This document shows positions 3,428 to 37,692 of a DNA stretch of 40,101 nt, piece by piece (the first letter of the stretch is position 1; each line of letters begins with the position of its first letter). The notes beneath the pieces are model-generated. The model was given only the letters and a program-made list of their open reading frames with translations. It was not told where the DNA came from and did no database searches. The stretch is from Candidatus Rokuibacteriota bacterium (GTDB taxonomy: Bacteria > Methylomirabilota > Methylomirabilia > Rokubacteriales > CSP1-6): positions 1-40,101 of the forward strand of contig QHSA01000103.1 of the NCBI GenBank assembly GCA_003220315.1, written 5' to 3'. The translations under genes and the position numbers were made by a program.

Positions 3428-5161
3428 TCAGAGGTGGGTCGGGCGTGCCGACTCCTCTGGCGTGACGGGGCGACGGCCGCGCAGCACGTCGAAGTCGCAC
3501 CCCTCGTTCGCCTGGAGCACATGGTCGAGGAAGATCCTGCCGTAGCCGCCGGTGAAGTGGGGCGCGGGCGGCGTCCACGCCTCGCGGCGCCGCGCCAGCT
3601 CCGCGTCGCTCACGCGGAGCGTGAGCTTCCGCTTCGGCACGTCGAGGTCGATCTCGTCGCCGTCGCGTACGAGCGCGAGCGGCCCGCCGATCGCCGCCTC
3701 GGGCGCGACGTGGAGGACCACGGTGCCGTACGACGTCCCGCTCATCCGTGCGTCGGAGATTCTCACCATGTCCTTGACGCCTTGCTTCAGGAGCCGCGCC
3801 GGGATCGGCGCCGCGCCCCACTCCGGCATGCCGGGTGCGCCCTTGGGCCCCGCGTGCTTGAGCACGAGCACGGAGGTCGCGTCGATCGCGAGCGCGGGGT
3901 CGTCGATGCGGCGCGCGAGGTCGTCATGGCTCTCGAAGACGACGGCGCGGCCGCGGTGGGTCAGGAGATGCGGCGACGCGGCGGACTGCTTGAGCACCGC
4001 GCCGTCGGGACACAGGTTGCCGAACAGGATGACCGTGCCGCCCTCCGGCGCGAGCGGTATCGCGAGCGGCCGGATGACGTCCTCGTTCCAGCACCGGGCG
4101 TCCCGGACGTTGTCGGCGAGCGTGCGGCCGTTGACGGCGAGGGCGTCCCCGTGGAGCAGCGGCAGCAACTCCTTGAGGACCACGGGGAGGCCGCCGGCGT
4201 AGAAGAAGTCCTCCATCAGGTACTTCCCCGACGGCTTGCAGTTGACGAGGAGCGGTGTCGAGCGCGACAGCGCGTCGAAGCGTGCGAGCGGCAGCGGGAC
4301 GCCGGCACGCCCAGCGAGGGCGACCAGGTGGACGATCGCGTTGGTCGAGCCGCCGATCGCCATGTCGCCGCGGATCGCGTTGTCGAAGGCCTTCGCCGTC
4401 AGGATCTCAGAGGGCCGAGGCCCGCCGCGGAGCGCCATCTCGACCGCCCGGCGTCCCGTCAGCTCGGCCAGCGCCAGGCGCCGGGAGTCGGGCGCGGGGA
4501 TCGCGGCGTTACCGGGAAGCGTCATGCCGAGGGCTTCGGCCATCGAGGCCATCGTGGACGCCGTCCCCATGACCATGCAGTGGCCGGTCGAGCGCGAGAG
4601 GCACGCCTCGACCTCACAGAGCTCCTCGTCGGTGAGCCGGTCGGCGCGCCGCTCGGCCCACAGGCGGCGGACGTCGGTGCCCGAGCCGAGCTCCTCCGTG
4701 CGCCACTTGCCGCGGAGCATCGGGCCTCCCGTGACCATGATAGCGGGGACGTCGGCGGAGGCGGCGCCCATGAGCATGGCGGGTGTGGTCTTGTCACACC
4801 CCGAGAGGAGCACGACCGCGTCGAGCGGATAGGCGCGGATGCACTCCTCGACGTCCATGGCCATCAGGTTCCGGAAGAGCATCGTCGTCGGCTTCATGAG
4901 AATTTCGCCGAGCGAGATGGTCGGGAACTCGAGGGGAAAGCCCCCAGCGCTCCACACGCCCCGCTTGACGGCGTCTGCCACCTGTCTCAGGTGCGCGTTG
5001 CAGTTGGTGAGCTCGGACCACGAGTTGGCGATGCCGATCACGGGACGGCCGTCGAAGACGAGATCGCTGAAGCCCTCGGCGCGGAGGTACGCGCGGTGCA
5101 TCAGCCCGTCGAGGGTGCGGGGCCCGAACCAGTTGCGGCTGCGGAGCGCGTGAGTCGTCAT
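3428..5161 (-). CDS. IlvD/Edd-family dehydratase, probably an aldonic or sugar-acid dehydratase
   Basis: A 577-residue Fe-S dehydratase. The three cluster-binding cysteines are in place: Cys54 (TNCNAH), Cys122 (SGCDKTTPA, with Lys124) and Cys195 (GHCMVMGTASTMA). GDMAIGGSTNAIVHL and the C-terminal SDARMSGTSYGTVVLHVAPEA are family hallmarks. The opening (LRSRNWFGPRTLDGLMHRAYLRAEGFSD) is closer to arabonate/xylonate-type dehydratases than to biosynthetic IlvD, and no valine/isoleucine genes are near, so dehydration of a sugar acid to a 2-keto-3-deoxy acid is more likely than branched-chain biosynthesis. The ATG at 5161 is set by GGAGGGGAGA upstream; the frame stays open much further (to 6424) but that extension is the antisense shadow of other genes. 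A TATAAT box lies about 45 bp upstream inside a repeat relic. Confidence 0.88.
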   Translation of the reverse strand: MTTHALRSRNWFGPRTLDGLMHRAYLRAEGFSDLVFDGRPVIGIANSWSELTNCNAHLRQVADAVKRGVWSAGGFPLEFPTISLGEILMKPTTMLFRNLMAMDVEECIRAYPLDAVVLLSGCDKTTPAMLMGAASADVPAIMVTGGPMLRGKWRTEELGSGTDVRRLWAERRADRLTDEELCEVEACLSRSTGHCMVMGTASTMASMAEALGMTLPGNAAIPAPDSRRLALAELTGRRAVEMALRGGPRPSEILTAKAFDNAIRGDMAIGGSTNAIVHLVALAGRAGVPLPLARFDALSRSTPLLVNCKPSGKYLMEDFFYAGGLPVVLKELLPLLHGDALAVNGRTLADNVRDARCWNEDVIRPLAIPLAPEGGTVILFGNLCPDGAVLKQSAASPHLLTHRGRAVVFESHDDLARRIDDPALAIDATSVLVLKHAGPKGAPGMPEWGAAPIPARLLKQGVKDMVRISDARMSGTSYGTVVLHVAPEAAIGGPLALVRDGDEIDLDVPKRKLTLRVSDAELARRREAWTPPAPHFTGGYGRIFLDHVLQANEGCDFDVLRGRRPVTPEESARPTHL

Positions 5162-5177: not shown

Positions 5178-5301
5178 CCACAGACTCGCCTCGGCCGGCG
5201 GGGCGCGATTATAGACTCGCCTCGGACGGCGGGGCCCCAGCCCCGCGACGTCCTCCGGCTCGCACTGCGGCCCCGCGACGTCCTGTGGCTCGCACGACCA
5301 C
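5178..5301 (-). repeat. Decayed copy of the GTG...TGA mini-ORF repeat upstream of the dehydratase gene
   Basis: Read leftward, the stretch begins GTGGTCGTGCGAGCCACAGG and encodes a peptide opening VVVRATGRRGAAVRAGG and ending APPSEASL before a TAA. It matches the mini-ORFs at 6187, 28765 and 36526 (shared V-R-A-x-G-R and E-A-S-L-stop). A second partial unit follows (GGCCGAGGCGAGTCTGTG), but its start has changed to ATA and its stop to TGTGGA, so the chain is broken. It sits between divergent genes, not between coupled ones. Confidence 0.65.
5208..5213 (-). promoter_or_regulatory. Candidate -10 box (TATAAT) for the IlvD/Edd gene, within a repeat relic
   Basis: A perfect TATAAT on the minus strand, about 47 bases before the start codon. 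It arises where intact repeats read TCTGTGATC and this copy reads TCTATAATC. No good -35 box is visible 16-18 bases upstream, so strength is uncertain. Confidence 0.5.
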
Positions 5302-5704: not shown

Positions 5705-6190
5705 ATGCTCGCGACCACGACGCACGTCCTTCGGATCCACCCCGAGAAGTGCACCGGTTGTCTTCGGTGCGAGCTCGCCTGCTCGTACATGCAGACGGGC
5801 ACGTTCCAACCCGCGAAGTCGGTCATCCGCGTCTCGCCCTTCGAGGGGCACACCTCGTATGCGCCCTACACCTGCACGCAGTGCGCCGAGGGGTGGTGCA
5901 TGACCGCCTGCCCCGTCGGCGCGATCACGATCAACGCGGCCGGCGCAAAGGATGTGCTCGACGACACGTGCGTGGGGTGCAAGCTCTGCACGATCGCGTG
6001 CCCCTACGGGACGATGTTCTACGACCCGGACACCCGCAAGGCCTTCAAGTGCAACCTGTGCGGCGGCGCCCCGGCCTGCGCCGAGGCATGCCCGACCGCG
6101 GCGATCACGTACGAGGCGACGGCGACCGCCGACTGGCTCGGCGAGTTCGCGCGGGAGCGGACCGCCCGGGTGCTCGCGGGGGCGCGGTGA
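5705..6190 (+). CDS. Four-cluster [4Fe-4S] ferredoxin subunit (AorA/HycB-like)
   Basis: A 161-residue electron-transfer subunit with sixteen cysteines in four groups: CTGCLRCELAC (about 16-26), CTQCAEGWCMTACP, CVGCKLCTIACP and CNLCGGAPACAEACP. This matches HycB/CooF/AorA-type polyferredoxins with four [4Fe-4S] clusters. It has no signal peptide, so it acts in the cytoplasm. It probably carries electrons between the tungsten subunit (7619) and the FAD/NAD subunit (6297). AGGAAG lies eight bases before ATG 5705, which I take as the start; GTG 5699, overlapping the previous stop, is an in-frame alternative. A repeat-derived mini-ORF separates it from the next gene. Confidence 0.9.
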   Translation: MLATTTHVLRIHPEKCTGCLRCELACSYMQTGTFQPAKSVIRVSPFEGHTSYAPYTCTQCAEGWCMTACPVGAITINAAGAKDVLDDTCVGCKLCTIACPYGTMFYDPDTRKAFKCNLCGGAPACAEACPTAAITYEATATADWLGEFARERTARVLAGAR

Positions 6191-6294
6191 TGGTCGTGCG
6201 AGCCACAGGACGTCGCGGGGCCGCCGTGCGAGCCGCAGCCGCCAGGCGAGGCGAGTCTGTGACCGCGCCCCCGCCGTCCGAGAGGAGCCTGTGA
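6187..6294 (+). repeat. Composite mini-ORF repeat bridging the ferredoxin and FAD oxidoreductase genes
   Basis: The ferredoxin stop is part of GTGA. The GTG at 6187 opens a 35-codon frame (begins VMVVRATGRRGAAVRAAA, ends APPPSERSL) that closes with TGA at 6292-6294, itself overlapping GTG 6291, an in-frame alternative start of the FAD gene. It shares GTGCGAGCC and GGCGAGTCTGTGA with the arrays at 28662 and 36526 and looks like two fused, slightly decayed units. Either translation-coupling DNA or a mobile repeat that tolerates this junction; it may be translated. Confidence 0.65.
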
Positions 6295-27478: not shown

Positions 27479-27922
27479 CTAGACCTTGCCGAAGATGTAC
27501 TTGGACAACAGCTCCTCGAAGTCGACCGGCGCTTCGACCTCTCGGATCCGCCCGCCGGGCGGGATGAGCTTCTCCGATCCGCCCGGACTGATACGCAAGT
27601 ACTTTTCCCCGATCAGCCCCTTCGTCTTGATCGACGCGATCGCGTCGTCCTGCAGCTTGACCCCCGAATTGATCCGGAGGGTCACGAGCGCCTGATAGTC
27701 TTTCAGGGTGATGGACTCCACGCGCCCGATCTCGACGCCCGCGATCTCCACCGTCGAGCCGGGCTTCAACCCCCCGACCGACGGAAACTCGGCGGTGACC
27801 ACGTAGCCGCCCCCACCGAGGAACGAAACGCGTCCGAGGTTAACCGAAAGGTAGCCCAATGCCAAGACGCCGATCAGTACGAACAGCCCGACCGCGACGT
27901 TGACCCGCGTTCGCTCCTCCAT
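27479..27922 (-). CDS. mlaD: MlaD-type MCE-domain protein
   Basis: A 147-residue protein with one membrane anchor (VGLFVLIGVLALGYLSVNLG) and a single MCE domain (VVTAEFPSVGGLKPGSTVEIAGVEIGRVESITL, then TKGLIGEKYLRISPGGS). This is the family's usual short length. It forms a hexameric ring linked to MlaE and MlaF and hands lipid to MlaC. It overlaps the mlaF stop by one base (TGATG). The extreme C-terminus (PVDFEELLSKYIFGKV) fits the family's ring-facing helix. Confidence 0.92.
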   Translation of the reverse strand: MEERTRVNVAVGLFVLIGVLALGYLSVNLGRVSFLGGGGYVVTAEFPSVGGLKPGSTVEIAGVEIGRVESITLKDYQALVTLRINSGVKLQDDAIASIKTKGLIGEKYLRISPGGSEKLIPPGGRIREVEAPVDFEELLSKYIFGKV

Positions 27923-28665
27923 CAGGCTCCCTCCGCGCGTTCCGGTTCCCCGCGGATGAACTGCCGGACGACGGGGTTCGGCGACGCCTGGATGACGGCC
28001 GGCGGCCCGACCTCCGCGATCCGTCCCTCGTGCAGCATGGCCACGGTGTCGGCGATCTCGAAGATTTCAGGAATCTCGTGGCTCACCATGACGGCGGTGA
28101 AGCGGAGCTTCCGATGGAGCTCCAGGATCAGGTGGTGGATGGTGTTGACGAGGATCGGATCGAGGCCCGTGGTCGGCTCGTCGAAGAAGACGATCTCGGG
28201 CTCGGTGACGAGTGCGCGCGCGATGGCGACGCGCTTGCGCATGCCGCCCGAGACCTCGGCCGGGTACTTGCTTCCCATGCCCTCGAGCCCCACCTGGGTC
28301 AGGGCCGCCTCGACTCGCGTCGCGACCTCGGCGGCGCGCAGGCGCAGCTTCTCCCGGAGCGGGAAGGCCACGTTGCCGGCGCACGTCATCGAGTCGAACA
28401 GCGCGCCGCCCTGGAAGACGACGCCGTAGCGCCGCCGGACCTCGTCGAGCGCGCGCCCGTGGAGGCGGGTGACGTCCGCGCCATCCACGAGCACACGGCC
28501 CGCGTCGGGGCGCAGGAGACCGATCAGGTGCCGGAGAAGCACCGACTTACCGCCGCCGCTCCGGCCGATGACGACCGTGATCGAGCCCGTGGCGACGTCC
28601 AGGTCGAGCCCCCGCAACACCTGTTGCCGGCCGAACGCCTTGACGAGCCGCTCGACCTTTATCAT
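27922..28665 (-). CDS. mlaF: MlaF-type ABC transporter ATPase
   Basis: A 247-residue ABC ATPase: Walker A GRSGGGKS (residues 34-41), Q-loop VVFQGGALFDSMT, signature SGGMRKR, Walker B VFFDEPTTGLDP, and the H-loop SHE. These residues and the GGALFDSMTCAGNVAFPL segment fit the phospholipid-transport (Mla/Ttg2A) group. It powers lipid transfer with MlaE and MlaD. The usual MlaB STAS subunit is absent from the window. Its ATG overlaps the TGA of the last mini-ORF of the array at 28662-28865 (ATGA); the GGCGAG before it in the repeat may act as the ribosome site. Confidence 0.93.
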   Translation of the reverse strand: MIKVERLVKAFGRQQVLRGLDLDVATGSITVVIGRSGGGKSVLLRHLIGLLRPDAGRVLVDGADVTRLHGRALDEVRRRYGVVFQGGALFDSMTCAGNVAFPLREKLRLRAAEVATRVEAALTQVGLEGMGSKYPAEVSGGMRKRVAIARALVTEPEIVFFDEPTTGLDPILVNTIHHLILELHRKLRFTAVMVSHEIPEIFEIADTVAMLHEGRIAEVGPPAVIQASPNPVVRQFIRGEPERAEGA

Positions 28666-28865
28666 AGGCTCGCCTCGGCCGGCGGGGCCTCGTTCACAGA
28701 CTCGCCTCGCCTTCGGCTCGCACTGCGGCCCCGCGACGGCCTGCGGCTCGCACCGCCACGCTCACAGACTCGCCTCGGCCGTCGGACGGCCTGCGGCTCG
28801 CACCGCCACACTCACAGACTCGCCTCGGCCGTCGGACGGCCTGCGGCTCGCACCGCCACGCTCAC
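28662..28865 (-). repeat. Four-unit mini-ORF repeat array linking mlaE and mlaF
   Basis: Read leftward from the mlaE stop (TGA 28864-28862, in GTGA) the chain is: GTG 28865 and GTG 28815, two identical 50-bp units coding VSVAVRAAGRPTAEASL; GTG 28765, a 68-bp variant coding VSVAVRAAGRRGAAVRAEGEASL in two halves; GTG 28697, a 32-bp unit coding VNEAPPAEASL. Each stop overlaps the next start as GTGA, and the last overlaps the mlaF ATG as ATGA. Shared core: GTGCGAGCC, a GGCCGTC/GACGGCC stem, GAGGCGAGTCTGTGA. Related to arrays at 6187 and 36526. Confidence 0.8.
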
Positions 28866-29656
28866 GGGAGCACCGTGCCCATGAAGTAGTCCCAGACCAG
28901 GATGAGGACGGAGGACAGGACGACCGCGTCGGTGGTCGCCTTGGCCACGCCCTCGGCGCCGTGGCCAACAGTGAAGCCCTTGTAGGTGCAGACCCACGTG
29001 ACGATCACGCCGAACGAGAGCGACTTCCAGAACCCCGTCATGATGTCGCTGAGATCGACGAAGCTCTGCATCTCGCCGAAATAGGTGCCCTGGGAGAGCC
29101 CGAGGAGCTCGACGCCGACGAGGTAACCCCCGAAGATGCCGACCGCGTCGAAGAGCGCGGTCATGAGCGGGAAGGTCACGAGGCCGGCCAGGATGGACGG
29201 CGCGACCAGGTAGCGGATGGGGCTCAGCGCCATCACGGTGAGCGCGTCGATCTGCTCGGTGATGCGCATGATGCCGATCTCGGCCGTGAGCGCCGATCCC
29301 GCGCGTCCGGTCACCATGAGCGCCGCCAGCACCGGGCCGAGCTCCCGGATGAGCGAGAGCGCGACGGCGGGCCCGAGGTACGCCTCGGACCCGAAGCGGA
29401 CGAGGGTGAAATACACCTGGAGGCCGAGCACCATGCCCGTGAACCCGCCGGTCAGCAGGATGATCAGGAGTGACCGGTAGCCGATGTAGTGGATCCGGTC
29501 GACGAACGCCCAGAACTTGAACGGCGGGGTCAGGATCGTCCCGAGCGCCTGTCCGAGAAACGTTCCGAAGCGGCCCAGCGCCTCGACGACCGCGATCGCC
29601 CACCGCCCGATCGCGTCCAGCGGGCGCAGCGTCAGCGGGAGCGGCCGCTCAGTCAT
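28862..29656 (-). CDS. mlaE: MlaE-type ABC transporter permease
   Basis: A 264-residue permease: FVDRIHYIGYRSLLIILLTGGFTGMVLGLQVYFTLVRFGSEAYLGPAVALSLIRELGPVLAALMVTGRAGSALTAEIGIMRITEQIDAL is the MlaE/Ttg2B core (R-E-L-G-P-V-L-x-A-x-x-x-x-G-R-x-G-S-A). It has about five membrane segments. It is the membrane channel of the lipid transporter. The start ATG 29656 overlaps the SHC stop (ATGA), and its own stop overlaps the first mini-ORF of the array toward mlaF. Confidence 0.92.
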   Translation of the reverse strand: MTERPLPLTLRPLDAIGRWAIAVVEALGRFGTFLGQALGTILTPPFKFWAFVDRIHYIGYRSLLIILLTGGFTGMVLGLQVYFTLVRFGSEAYLGPAVALSLIRELGPVLAALMVTGRAGSALTAEIGIMRITEQIDALTVMALSPIRYLVAPSILAGLVTFPLMTALFDAVGIFGGYLVGVELLGLSQGTYFGEMQSFVDLSDIMTGFWKSLSFGVIVTWVCTYKGFTVGHGAEGVAKATTDAVVLSSVLILVWDYFMGTVLP

Positions 29657-33718: not shown

Positions 33719-34407
33719 CGCGCGTCGCCGTCTTCACCGCAGTCGACCTCGAAGCCCGGAGCCTCGCGCGCCTGCTCGGGCTCGCGCGCGTCGCCGGTAG
33801 CGAGTGGCCGCATTACCGGACGGGGGCGCTCGAGCTCCTGTGCGTGGGCCCCCGCGCCCGCGCGCTCGACCTGCGCGCGTCGCGCATGGCGCCACCCGCG
33901 TTCGTCGTGTCAGCCGGCGTCTGTGGAGCCCTCTCACCCGACCTCGCCGAGGGCGACCTGGTCGTGCCCGAGACCGTCGTCGGCCCGACGGGCGCGTGCC
34001 ACGCGACCGCGGAGGTGGCGGGCCTCCGGCGGGTGGGGACGCTCGTGACCGTGGACGAGGTCGTGGCGACGCCGAGCGCGAAGGCGCGGCTCTGGGTCGA
34101 GGCCGGCGCGCTCGCGTGTGACATGGAGTCGGCCGTGATCCTCGAGTGGGCCCGGGCGCACGAGATTCCCGCCGCGGTGATCCGCGCGGTGAGCGACACG
34201 GCCGAGCGCGGCGTGCCCGCCGACCTCGCCGCGGTCGTGGAGCCGGACGGGCGGGTGCGAACGCTGCGCGCGGTTCGGGCGGTGCTGGCCCGTCCGCGCG
34301 CCTTCGCCGACGCCCTCGCGCTGCGGAGCGGGACGCACGTGGCTCTCCGGGCCGTGGCGCGCGCGCTCGGCCGCATCGCGAGGGACCCGCGGCCCCCGGT
34401 GAAATGA
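33715..34407 (+). CDS. hpnG: HpnG, hopanoid-associated nucleoside phosphorylase-like enzyme
   Basis: A 230-residue protein of the MTA/nucleoside phosphorylase fold. Seen: FVVSAGVCGALSPDLAEGDLVVPETVV, the Asp-Met-Glu site (ACDMESAVI, Asp136 to Glu138) and the second Asp in AVSDTAE (Asp161). HpnG removes adenine from adenosylhopane, giving (phospho)ribosylhopane. It starts on GTG 33715 overlapping the previous stop. Its C-terminal 40 residues are alanine/arginine rich. Its own stop is in ATGA, where the 83-bp mini-ORF array begins, so the next gene hpnA is linked through three repeats and not directly. Confidence 0.9.
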   Translation: MTRVAVFTAVDLEARSLARLLGLARVAGSEWPHYRTGALELLCVGPRARALDLRASRMAPPAFVVSAGVCGALSPDLAEGDLVVPETVVGPTGACHATAEVAGLRRVGTLVTVDEVVATPSAKARLWVEAGALACDMESAVILEWARAHEIPAAVIRAVSDTAERGVPADLAAVVEPDGRVRTLRAVRAVLARPRAFADALALRSGTHVALRAVARALGRIARDPRPPVK

Positions 34408-34659
34408 ACAGCGCCATGCGGAACGGAGCCGGGTCGCGCCTCGTCTCAGGCCACCCACGGAGTGTGGCGGCCCCGCGGCCGGTGGAATGAAGAGCGCCAT
34501 GCGCAACGGAGCCGGATCGCGCCTCGTCTCAGGCCACCCACGGAGTGTGGCGGCCCCGCGGCCGGTGGAATGAAGAGCGCCATGCGCAACGGAGCCGGAT
34601 CGCGCCTCGTCTCAGGCCACCCACGGAGTGTGGCGGCCCCGCGGCCGCCGGTACAATGA
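34404..34659 (+). repeat. Three-unit 83-bp mini-ORF repeat array linking hpnG and hpnA
   Basis: Units start at ATG 34404, 34487 and 34570 (spacing 83, 83, then 86 to hpnA). Each codes MxSAMRNGAGSRLVSGHPRS then VAAPRP and a short end (VE in the first two, PVQ in the third), 28, 28 and 29 codons. Each TGA overlaps the next ATG (ATGA), and the last ATG is the hpnA start at 34656. The three base changes between units 1 and 2 are all at third codon positions. The third unit is 3 bp longer, keeping the phase. Unrelated in sequence to the 50-53-bp family. Confidence 0.85.
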
Positions 34660-35651: not shown

Positions 35652-36529
35652 TCGCGGACCTCACCGCCCGGCTCACACGGAAGAGCCGCTCGAACTTCTA
35701 CTACGCGTTTCTCACGCTGCCGCGCCCGCGTCGCGAGGCGCTCTACGCGGTGTACGCCTTCTGCCGGACCGTGGACGACATCGCGGATCTCGGCGGCGAG
35801 CGGGGCGTCGACCCGCCGGTCCAGCGCCGGGAGCTCCGGCGCTGGCGCGAGGAGGTGGCGCGCTGCTACGCGCCGGGCGCGGTCCCCGACCACCCGATCG
35901 CGCTCAGGCTCCAGACCGCCGTACGCGCCTACGCGATCCCGCGCGCGGCGCTCGAGGCGATCATCGACGGCGTCGAGATGGACCTCGACCGCGTCGCCTA
36001 CGAGACGGCGGAGGAGCTCTACCCGTACTGCTACCGCGTCGCCTCTGCGGTCGGGCTCTGCTGCATCGAGATCTTCGGCTACACCGACCCCCGCGCGCGC
36101 CAGTACGCGATCAAGCTGGGCCAGGCACTCCAGCTCACGAACATCATCCGCGACGTCGGCGCCGACGCCCGGGCCGGGCGCGTGTATGTGCCGCAGGAAG
36201 ACCTCCGGGCGTTCGGCGTCACCGTCGACGATCTGAAGGGGGCTCGTTACACCGAGCCGTTCGTGCGCCTGATGACCCACCAGGCGGTACGCGCGCGGCA
36301 ATTCTACCGGGTCGCATGGGAGAGCTTTCCCGCGGCCGACGCGCGCTCGCTCGTGCCGGCCGAGATCATGGGGCGGATCTACCTCGCCCTGCTCGACGAG
36401 ATCGAGACGCGACGGTTCCGTGTGTTCGGTGAGCGCGTCACGGTGCCGGTTGCGAAGAAGCTCGCGATCGCGCTCCGCTGCTGGGTTGCCGCCAGGCTCG
36501 GGCGCGCCGCCCGGACGCTCGCCGCGTGA
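35648..36529 (+). CDS. hpnD: HpnD, presqualene diphosphate synthase
   Basis: A 293-residue prenyl-synthase-fold protein: SNFYYAFLTLPRPRREALYAVYAFCRTVDDIAD (first Asp-rich motif Asp43, 44 and 47) and LTNIIRDVGADARAGRVYVP (second, Asp169 and Asp173). In most bacteria HpnD joins two farnesyl diphosphates into presqualene diphosphate, then HpnC and HpnE make squalene; those two are not in this window, so they must lie elsewhere or this enzyme does more. ATG 35648 overlaps the hpnA stop. Its own stop is part of GTGA at 36526-36529, where the 53-bp mini-ORF array starts. Confidence 0.92.
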   Translation: MIADLTARLTRKSRSNFYYAFLTLPRPRREALYAVYAFCRTVDDIADLGGERGVDPPVQRRELRRWREEVARCYAPGAVPDHPIALRLQTAVRAYAIPRAALEAIIDGVEMDLDRVAYETAEELYPYCYRVASAVGLCCIEIFGYTDPRARQYAIKLGQALQLTNIIRDVGADARAGRVYVPQEDLRAFGVTVDDLKGARYTEPFVRLMTHQAVRARQFYRVAWESFPAADARSLVPAEIMGRIYLALLDEIETRRFRVFGERVTVPVAKKLAIALRCWVAARLGRAARTLAA

Positions 36530-36687
36530 TCGGCGTGGTCGTACGAGCCGCAGGCCGTCCGACGGCCGAGGCGAGTCTGTGATCGGCGTGGTCGTACGAG
36601 CCGCAGGCCGTCCGACGGCCGAGGCGAGTCTGTGATCGGCGTGGTCGTGCGAGCCGCAGGCCGTCCGACGGCCGAGGCGAGTCTGTG
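36526..36687 (+). repeat. Three-unit 53-bp mini-ORF repeat array linking hpnD and the first alcohol dehydrogenase
   Basis: GTG starts at 36526, 36579 and 36632, exactly 53 bp apart, each coding VIGVVVRAAGRPTAEASL (18 residues). The first GTG overlaps the hpnD stop, each TGA overlaps the next GTG, and the third TGA overlaps GTG 36685, the start of the dehydrogenase. Units 1 and 2 are identical; unit 3 has one silent change (GTA to GTG). Same family as 28662-28865 on the other strand. GAGGCGAG sits six or seven bases before each next GTG and could serve as a ribosome site. Confidence 0.85.
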
Positions 36688-37692
36688 ATCGCATCTGTGT
36701 ACCGCGGAGACGGAAAGCTCGTCGCCGAGGAATGGCCCCGGCCGACGATCGGCGCCGGCGAGGTGCTGTTGCGCGTCCTGGGCTGCGGGCTCTGCGGCTC
36801 TGACATCGCGAAGATCGTGGACCCGTCGACGCCGGCGCCGCTCGTGCTCGGCCACGAGGTCGTCGGTGAGATCGTCGCGCTTGGCCCGGGCGTGACGGAC
36901 TGCGCGATCGGCGACCGCGTCGTTGCCGCCCACCACGTCCCGTGCGGCGACTGTCACTATTGCCGACGAGGGAGCGAATCGATGTGTCACGCCTTCAAGG
37001 CGTCGAACCTCGACCCCGGTGGCTTCGCGGAGTACGTGCGAGTGCCCGCGCCAAACGTCCGCCACGCGCTGTTCCGGGTGCCCCGCCACGTGACCGACGA
37101 GGCGGCGTCGTTCGTGGAGCCCCTCGCGTGCTGTCTGCGCTCGGTACGGCGCGCGCGCGTCGCGCCCGGCGACACGGTCGTCGTCGTCGGCCTCGGCTCG
37201 ATCGGCTGTCTCTTCGTCCAGCTCCTCCGGCGCGCGGGAGCCGTGGTGGTCGGCTGCGACCCGATCGCCGCGCGCGCCGAGCTCGCCCGACGCCTGGGCG
37301 CGGCCGCCGCGGGGCCCGCCTCCGCGGCCGCGGCCGCGCAGCGCGAGCTCTCTGGCGGACGTGGCGCCGACCAGGTCATCGTCACCGGCGGCGGGACGGA
37401 CGTGCTGCCGTGGGCGGTGGAGAGCCTCCGCGACGGCGGGACGGTCCACTACTTCGCCAGCGGCGGCGACACGCTCCCGCTCCGGCTCGAAACGCTCTAC
37501 CACCGGGAGCTCACCCTGACCGCCACGTACTCGTCGTCGCCCTCTGACCTCGCCGAGGCCTTTCGGCTGATCGTCGCGGGCGAGGTGTCCGTGGACCGGC
37601 TCGTCACCCATCGCGTGACGCTTCCCGGGCTCCACCGCGGCGTGGATTTGATGCGACGGCGCGAGGCGCTCAAGGTGTACGTGACGCCATGA
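36685..37692 (+). CDS. Zinc-dependent medium-chain alcohol dehydrogenase 1
   Basis: A 335-residue MDR enzyme. Catalytic zinc ligands Cys37 (GLCGSD), His57 and Glu58 (GHEVVGE); structural zinc cysteines 87, 90, 93 and 101 (CGDCHYCRRGSESMC); NAD-binding GLGSIG in VVVVGLGSIGCLFVQLL. It oxidises or reduces an alcohol/carbonyl, probably with NAD(H). The GTG start is fixed by the end of the repeat array. It is coupled to a second dehydrogenase (ATGA). Lying after hpnH, hpnG, hpnA and hpnD, it is a candidate for reduction of the ribosylhopane side chain. Sorbitol/threonine dehydrogenase-like subgroup. Confidence 0.88.
   Translation: MIASVYRGDGKLVAEEWPRPTIGAGEVLLRVLGCGLCGSDIAKIVDPSTPAPLVLGHEVVGEIVALGPGVTDCAIGDRVVAAHHVPCGDCHYCRRGSESMCHAFKASNLDPGGFAEYVRVPAPNVRHALFRVPRHVTDEAASFVEPLACCLRSVRRARVAPGDTVVVVGLGSIGCLFVQLLRRAGAVVVGCDPIAARAELARRLGAAAAGPASAAAAAQRELSGGRGADQVIVTGGGTDVLPWAVESLRDGGTVHYFASGGDTLPLRLETLYHRELTLTATYSSSPSDLAEAFRLIVAGEVSVDRLVTHRVTLPGLHRGVDLMRRREALKVYVTP

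Follow-up and report, generated by a model that had tools for sequence, protein, structure and literature searches.

In an uncultured soil bacterium whose MlaE has its nearest relatives in Candidatus Rokubacteria, the junction between mlaE and mlaF is filled by short units of a dispersed repeat family, and these units form a chain of mini-ORFs leading from the stop codon of the one gene exactly to the start codon of the other. We consider it probable (about 0.75), judging from the sequences compared here, that a family resembling the mycobacterial interspersed repetitive units (MIRUs; Supply et al. 1997, as cited in PMC12548453 and PMC4473831) enters NTGA stop/start overlaps, keeps the neighboring genes coupled by termination–reinitiation and is later duplicated in tandem.

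Mini-ORF Chain between mlaE and mlaF

The window, by which we mean the whole 40,101-nt stretch analyzed, is one complete contig of a 4.26-Mb genome in 301 contigs. On its minus strand, the permease gene mlaE (28862..29653; Pfam MlaE, 1.5e-78; start at GTG 29653 as shown, with ATG 29656 as the alternative) lies upstream of the ABC ATPase gene mlaF (27922..28665; Pfam ABC_tran, 4.9e-32), the ATPase occupying the MlaF position of an mla operon in which MlaD and MlaC were also confirmed by Pfam. The mlaE stop TGA falls within a GTGA (28865-28862), and four mini-ORFs of the same strand follow. The first (28812..28865, 54 nt) and the second (28762..28815, 54 nt) both translate to VSVAVRAAGRPTAEASL before the stop, their units differing at 1 of 50 positions. 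The third (28694..28765, 72 nt, peptide VSVAVRAAGRRGAAVRAEGEASL) is a hybrid unit with a period of 68, the first 31 nt of which are common to units 1 and 2. The fourth (28662..28697, 36 nt, peptide VNEAPPAEASL) is a short module with a period of 32 that recurs dispersed through the genome; it ends in ATGA at the start of mlaF, which itself begins ATGA with the ATG at 28665. The peptides predicted from such mini-ORFs include the VRAAGRPTAEASL type.

The preliminary description of this DNA had the geometry exactly right, from the coordinates and the periods of 50, 50, 68, and 32 to the 4-nt overlap (GTGA or ATGA) at each step and the E-A-S-L-stop ending of all four mini-ORFs. It had also argued that such unequal units are hard to explain by simple recent duplication. 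We explain them by several module types of one family together with tandem duplication: units 1 and 2 are near-identical and unit 3 shares 31 nt with them, and recent duplication therefore accounts for part of the chain.

Repeat Family across the Genome

The assignment of the units to one repeat family held up genome-wide: the 15-base unit end GAGGCGAGTCTGTGA, allowing up to two mismatches, had 142 matches in the 4.26-Mb genome compared with 4 for the reversed control. With at most one mismatch, one congener was about equal (96 versus 95), other congeners had few matches, and counts in genomes outside the family were close to the control. As the units occur throughout the genome, the coupling device proposed earlier is not specific to the mla locus, and we rejected that version of it.

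To characterize the copies, we used 20 stretches of 20 kb and the window (440 kb; the contigs were picked among motif-bearing ones and are only roughly unbiased), with genes called by a small codon-usage script. The modules are of several types, with lengths of 32, 44, 47, 50, 53, 65, 68, and 74, mostly multiples of 3 apart, and the unit length is 2 modulo 3 in 36 of 42 array/period entries from this genome, entries that are not independent. Copies are mostly intergenic, lying within operons between genes of the same direction, and among about 51 scorable copies between same-strand genes, 49 were oriented with transcription and 2 opposite to it (counted by hand). One unit type shows paired changes across a palindromic stem (CA/TG 6, GC/GC 4, GA/TC 2), its palindromic core being fully paired in 14 of 18 copies. 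The folding energies of the repeats are nevertheless no better than those of dinucleotide shuffles (z from −1.5 to +1.1), for which reason we rejected strong RNA structure in the units, and an Rfam search of the window matched no known RNA family.

Three further copies lie in the window. A second array (36526..36688, plus strand), with three mini-ORFs of 57 nt and a period of 53, sits between a squalene/phytoene synthase gene and an alcohol dehydrogenase gene (SQS–ADH). The third copy, a single 108-nt mini-ORF (6187..6294, plus strand) between genes that, as read from the sequence, are of the ferredoxin type and the FAD-type oxidoreductase kind, relays to GTG 6291, which shares its frame with ATG 6297. 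The fourth (5178..5301, minus strand) lies between divergent genes, ahead of the one that starts at 5161; it has no relay, the start/stop overlap having gone (GTGG), and one unit end carries a TATAAT-like stretch.

A relay of the same kind is also built by repeats unrelated in sequence: three tandem copies of 83 bp (34396-34659, plus strand) give steps of 87, 87, and 90 nt that lead from the stop at 34407 to the gene at 34656. In five 68-bp units between convergent genes (L044:1755-2041), the GTG start codon has become GTA. A further intergenic repeat that is dispersed, rich in G+C, and hairpin-like, GCGGGCTTTGCCCGC ... GGAGGGGGCC ... GGCCCCC, was found at L236, L238, L246, L247, and L248 and in the own genome at L034 and L038.

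The mlaE–mlaF Junction in Relatives

Our comparison covered 38 junctions from Rokubacteria, namely those of the window and of L076-L112, with L143 in addition. The commonest state, seen in most of the empty relatives and carried by the deep branches, is a direct 4-nt GTGA overlap of mlaE and mlaF, and as read from this distribution the ancestral junction is such an overlap. Units are found in 11 of the 38 genomes, the window and 10 others, and vary in type, length, and number, from 1 to at least 4; the assemblies, being MAG or short-read, may miscount tandem units, and L097 contains an N gap. The upstream stops of the filled junctions vary as well, being TGA within GTGA or TGATG or TAG within TAGTG, and the relay is kept despite TGATG and TAGTG (L084, L085). 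In every one of the 11 filled junctions the relay is unbroken and lands exactly on the mlaF start. The junctions thus show an empty ancestral state, repeated fillings, and retention of the relay together with its sequence architecture.

Random indels of 1–2 nt would leave an expected 2.4 of the 11 relays (the null reaching up to 0.65 at mla), and shuffling gave an expectation of 4.3; at SQS–ADH, 1.9 relays were expected from shuffles and 6 of 6 observed. With several units in an array, frames resynchronize, which makes the random-indel null lenient; single-unit junctions are the cleaner case. The fillings also have ancestry in common: on the tree of MlaE and MlaF, 3 changes suffice for presence of the element by itself, and the starred branches force only 1.

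Alignment of the related junctions, a check suggested by the preliminary description, gave a mixed result for its coupling device: the unbroken chain, found in all filled junctions, would couple mlaE to mlaF, but the coupling overlap predates the units. Because the ancestral junction was already a GTGA overlap, the units would preserve coupling across an insertion and not create it.

Relay at Overlapping and Loose Gene Pairs

The follow-up set consisted of two relaying and two nonrelaying junctions from this genome, the ancestry of which was then looked up in relatives. As these junctions were chosen partly by their relay state in the own genome, the own-genome rows are not blind, unlike those of the other genomes; whether a junction is filled was in part decided by eye (L273, L280, L287). 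Outside this set, the SQS–ADH genes mostly overlap directly in relatives, and the filled junctions relay in all six cases. In one of them (L193), a tandem duplication with a period of 59 nt took in the first 7 ADH codons and the relay was retained; L211 likewise retains it with an extra in-frame TTA. Two of the six, from genomes of another genus (L216 and L217), have a differently built repeat with GGTGAAATGACC-type ends that also relays. For the two relaying pairs of the follow-up set, many empty relatives overlap by 4 nt: strict relay was found in 6 of 7 filled junctions of the first (L046), the seventh coming after a 5-nt gap, and in 2 of 2 of the other (L016).

By comparison, the two nonrelaying pairs, ancestrally gapped or variable and often with TAG as the stop, had no exact relay in four (L037) and nine (L049) filled junctions, although four of the latter reach the frame of the gene further upstream. 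The single elements at mlaF–mlaD (L089), a pair that overlaps in many but not most relatives, and at mlaD–mlaC (L109) also lack an exact relay; their random nulls were left out as meaningless, since taking the downstream start from the alignment made them zero. In total, exact relay was seen in 25 of 26 filled junctions at four ancestrally overlapping pairs and in 0 of 15 at four pairs without clear ancestral overlap (Fisher P = 2.5e-10), and a lenient criterion gave 25/26 versus 4/15 (Fisher P = 4.6e-6), the rows being treated without correction for shared ancestry in both tests. Among the overlapping pairs, NTGA forms the overlap of empty junctions and stands at both ends of filled ones. The preliminary description had reasoned that relatives with a direct overlap, combined with copies out of phase with genes elsewhere, would refute its coupling device: such relatives exist, but elsewhere the copies are only partly out of phase, namely at the loose pairs.

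Genome-wide, 19 of 51 element junctions have a strict relay, compared with 30 of the 115 junctions that lack an element and have gaps of 31–300 nt. We therefore rejected a universal relay and take it to characterize certain junctions and not all copies. Its success is to some extent inherent, as arrays whose period is 2 modulo 3 return to the frame after a few units.

Proposed Mechanism and Alternative Explanations

In the mechanism that we propose, a copy of the dispersed repeat would have entered the ancestral GTGA overlap of mlaE and mlaF, and the units would then have been duplicated in tandem. Since the overlap sequence ends up flanking the insert on both sides, the mlaE stop and the mlaF start are both kept. 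Duplicated ends are seen in L297, CGC[ATGAACA]ATGCAG...GTCT[ATGAACA]TGG, and in L079, [TGATC]; those of L297 suggest that insertion duplicated a short target, so that both neighbors would stay intact. In the insert, the first start codon overlaps the stop of the gene before it, the frame is open over a length of 2 modulo 3, GAGG lies 7 nt ahead of the last start codon, and the closing stop overlaps this last start. With these parts in place, a ribosome could pass from mlaE to mlaF: on ending mlaE it would restart on the mini-ORF, stop at the next NTGA, and continue step by step into mlaF. Termination–reinitiation needs an overlap or a very short gap, and 38-nt gaps lower it by 80–90% in two gene pairs of Escherichia coli and eliminate it in another (PMC10666635); because gaps of that size already cut reinitiation, an insert of 40–266 nt without a relay should uncouple mlaE from mlaF. 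We infer that the mini-ORFs are translated, that reinitiation occurs between them, that selection on coupling holds their frame, and that the element transposes.

A selfish repeat could produce much of this pattern in the absence of any selection on coupling: with lengths of 2 modulo 3, NTGA ends, and a preference for NTGA targets, it would relay automatically by descent, an account that we regard as possible, if short of probable. Consistent with it, the element types are few, their ends are duplicated at insertion, and a period of 2 modulo 3 is common even in arrays that abut no gene (33/46, compared with 29/33 for gene-abutting arrays; P = 0.10), so whole-array phase, not being significant, was rejected as a sign of selection. 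Part of the contrast between overlapping and loose pairs would also arise if entry into an NTGA site by itself set NTGA at both ends. The remaining requirement, a length of 2 modulo 3 and no stop, has roughly a one-third chance per independent event, and one third raised to the 7 to 13 events that we estimate by unit type and lineage, with no formal count, is 5e-4 to 6e-7. Module lengths that differ mostly by multiples of 3, making off-frame indels scarce, count against a purely selfish element, as do the secondary changes at ancestrally overlapping junctions that keep the relay (L083, L104, L193, L211, and a 24-nt third ORF in L192). Chance alone, by which small ORFs chain easily where a G+C-rich genome has few stops, could draw on the relays across element-free gaps (30/115), but we rejected it as the sole cause and give it hardly any credence, given the genome-wide family (142 versus 4 matches) and the 11/11 and 6/6 relays at ancestrally overlapping junctions, for which shuffles gave expected values of 4.3 and 1.9.

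The palindromic cores, with their paired stem changes and the 14 of 18 fully paired copies of one unit type, could point to a REP-type element that works through an RNA or DNA hairpin, its reading frames being incidental, and REPs near stop codons are reported to influence translation (PMC12306157). Shuffle-like folding energies, the absence of the Y1 transposase from the genus, and the frame retention that it leaves unexplained make this explanation unlikely. Quite unlikely, too, is a dosage device, in which the number of units would set the MlaE:MlaF ratio as each reinitiation step loses or gains ribosomes. The range from 1 to at least 4 units at one junction and the GAGG at a suitable distance before each start would suit it, but the same family occupies unrelated junctions, the same operon occurs in relatives with zero units, and short-read assembly may have miscounted the units (as with the N gap in L097). 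It seems just as doubtful that the array is an evolvable rheostat, in which slippage in unit number would shift the protein ratio of coupled genes such as MlaE and MlaF with coupling intact and be used by selection. Occurrences of one gene pair with 0, 1, 2, 3, or more units are natural replicates for gauging the strength of selection on translational coupling, and the mlaE–mlaF chains allow a direct test of ribosome handover across several consecutive mini-ORFs.

Comparison with Known Systems

Termination–reinitiation at ATGA and GTGA overlaps, the mechanism that we propose for each step of the chain, is known from other systems (PMC6728339, PMC10666635); a stop/start overlap of −4 or −1 nt is present at each relay step, and the difference is that coupling here would run through inserted mini-ORFs that are not genes. 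Synthetic short ORFs placed upstream, as in bicistronic designs, are similar in that a nonsense mini-ORF with an internal RBS near its stop delivers ribosomes downstream (PMC13255528), but they are engineered, whereas the Rokubacteria units are natural and repeated. REP/BIME elements with their RAYTs are also short, dispersed, intergenic, partly palindromic, and often placed right after stops (PMC3733652, PMC12306157), yet a reading-frame relay is not a REP feature, and mobilization by a RAYT was rejected as the Y1 (IS200-like) REP-type tyrosine transposase, PF01797 (Y1_Tnp), had 0 matches in the genome and the genus (G000-G003). Rickettsia palindromic elements (RPEs) are short repeats whose insertion respects reading frames (PMC10969869); they enter genes in frame and make the protein longer, whereas the Rokubacteria copies are mostly intergenic, with mini-ORFs of their own, and we rejected an identity with RPEs on these grounds.

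The closest likeness is to MIRUs: in both, short dispersed intercistronic repeats, oriented with the genes and variable in tandem copy number, carry mini-ORFs with stop/start overlaps. The Rokubacteria family has exact relays at mlaE–mlaF, SQS–ADH, and other junctions, and NTGA at empty overlaps and at both ends of filled junctions. The 1997 work of Supply is said to place MIRU insertion at DTGA stop/start sites. According to a 2025 review, MIRUs are mobile and insert at start codons, with an internal ORF coupled at −4 nt that probably limits the cost of insertion, expression being little affected (PMC12548453). They are described as containing small ORFs that overlap the adjoining ORFs, as having the same orientation, and as without dyad symmetry (PMC4473831). 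The palindromic cores of the Rokubacteria units, shuffle-like as their folding is, may be a difference, and the units are of modular types of 32–74 bp in a nonmycobacterial host. In this comparison by description, we file the family beside MIRUs and not as a MIRU: as described, it closely resembles them and would be a different family in an unrelated phylum. The resemblance suggests that repeats inserting into gene overlaps with a bridging mini-ORF of their own have arisen in more than one bacterial phylum.
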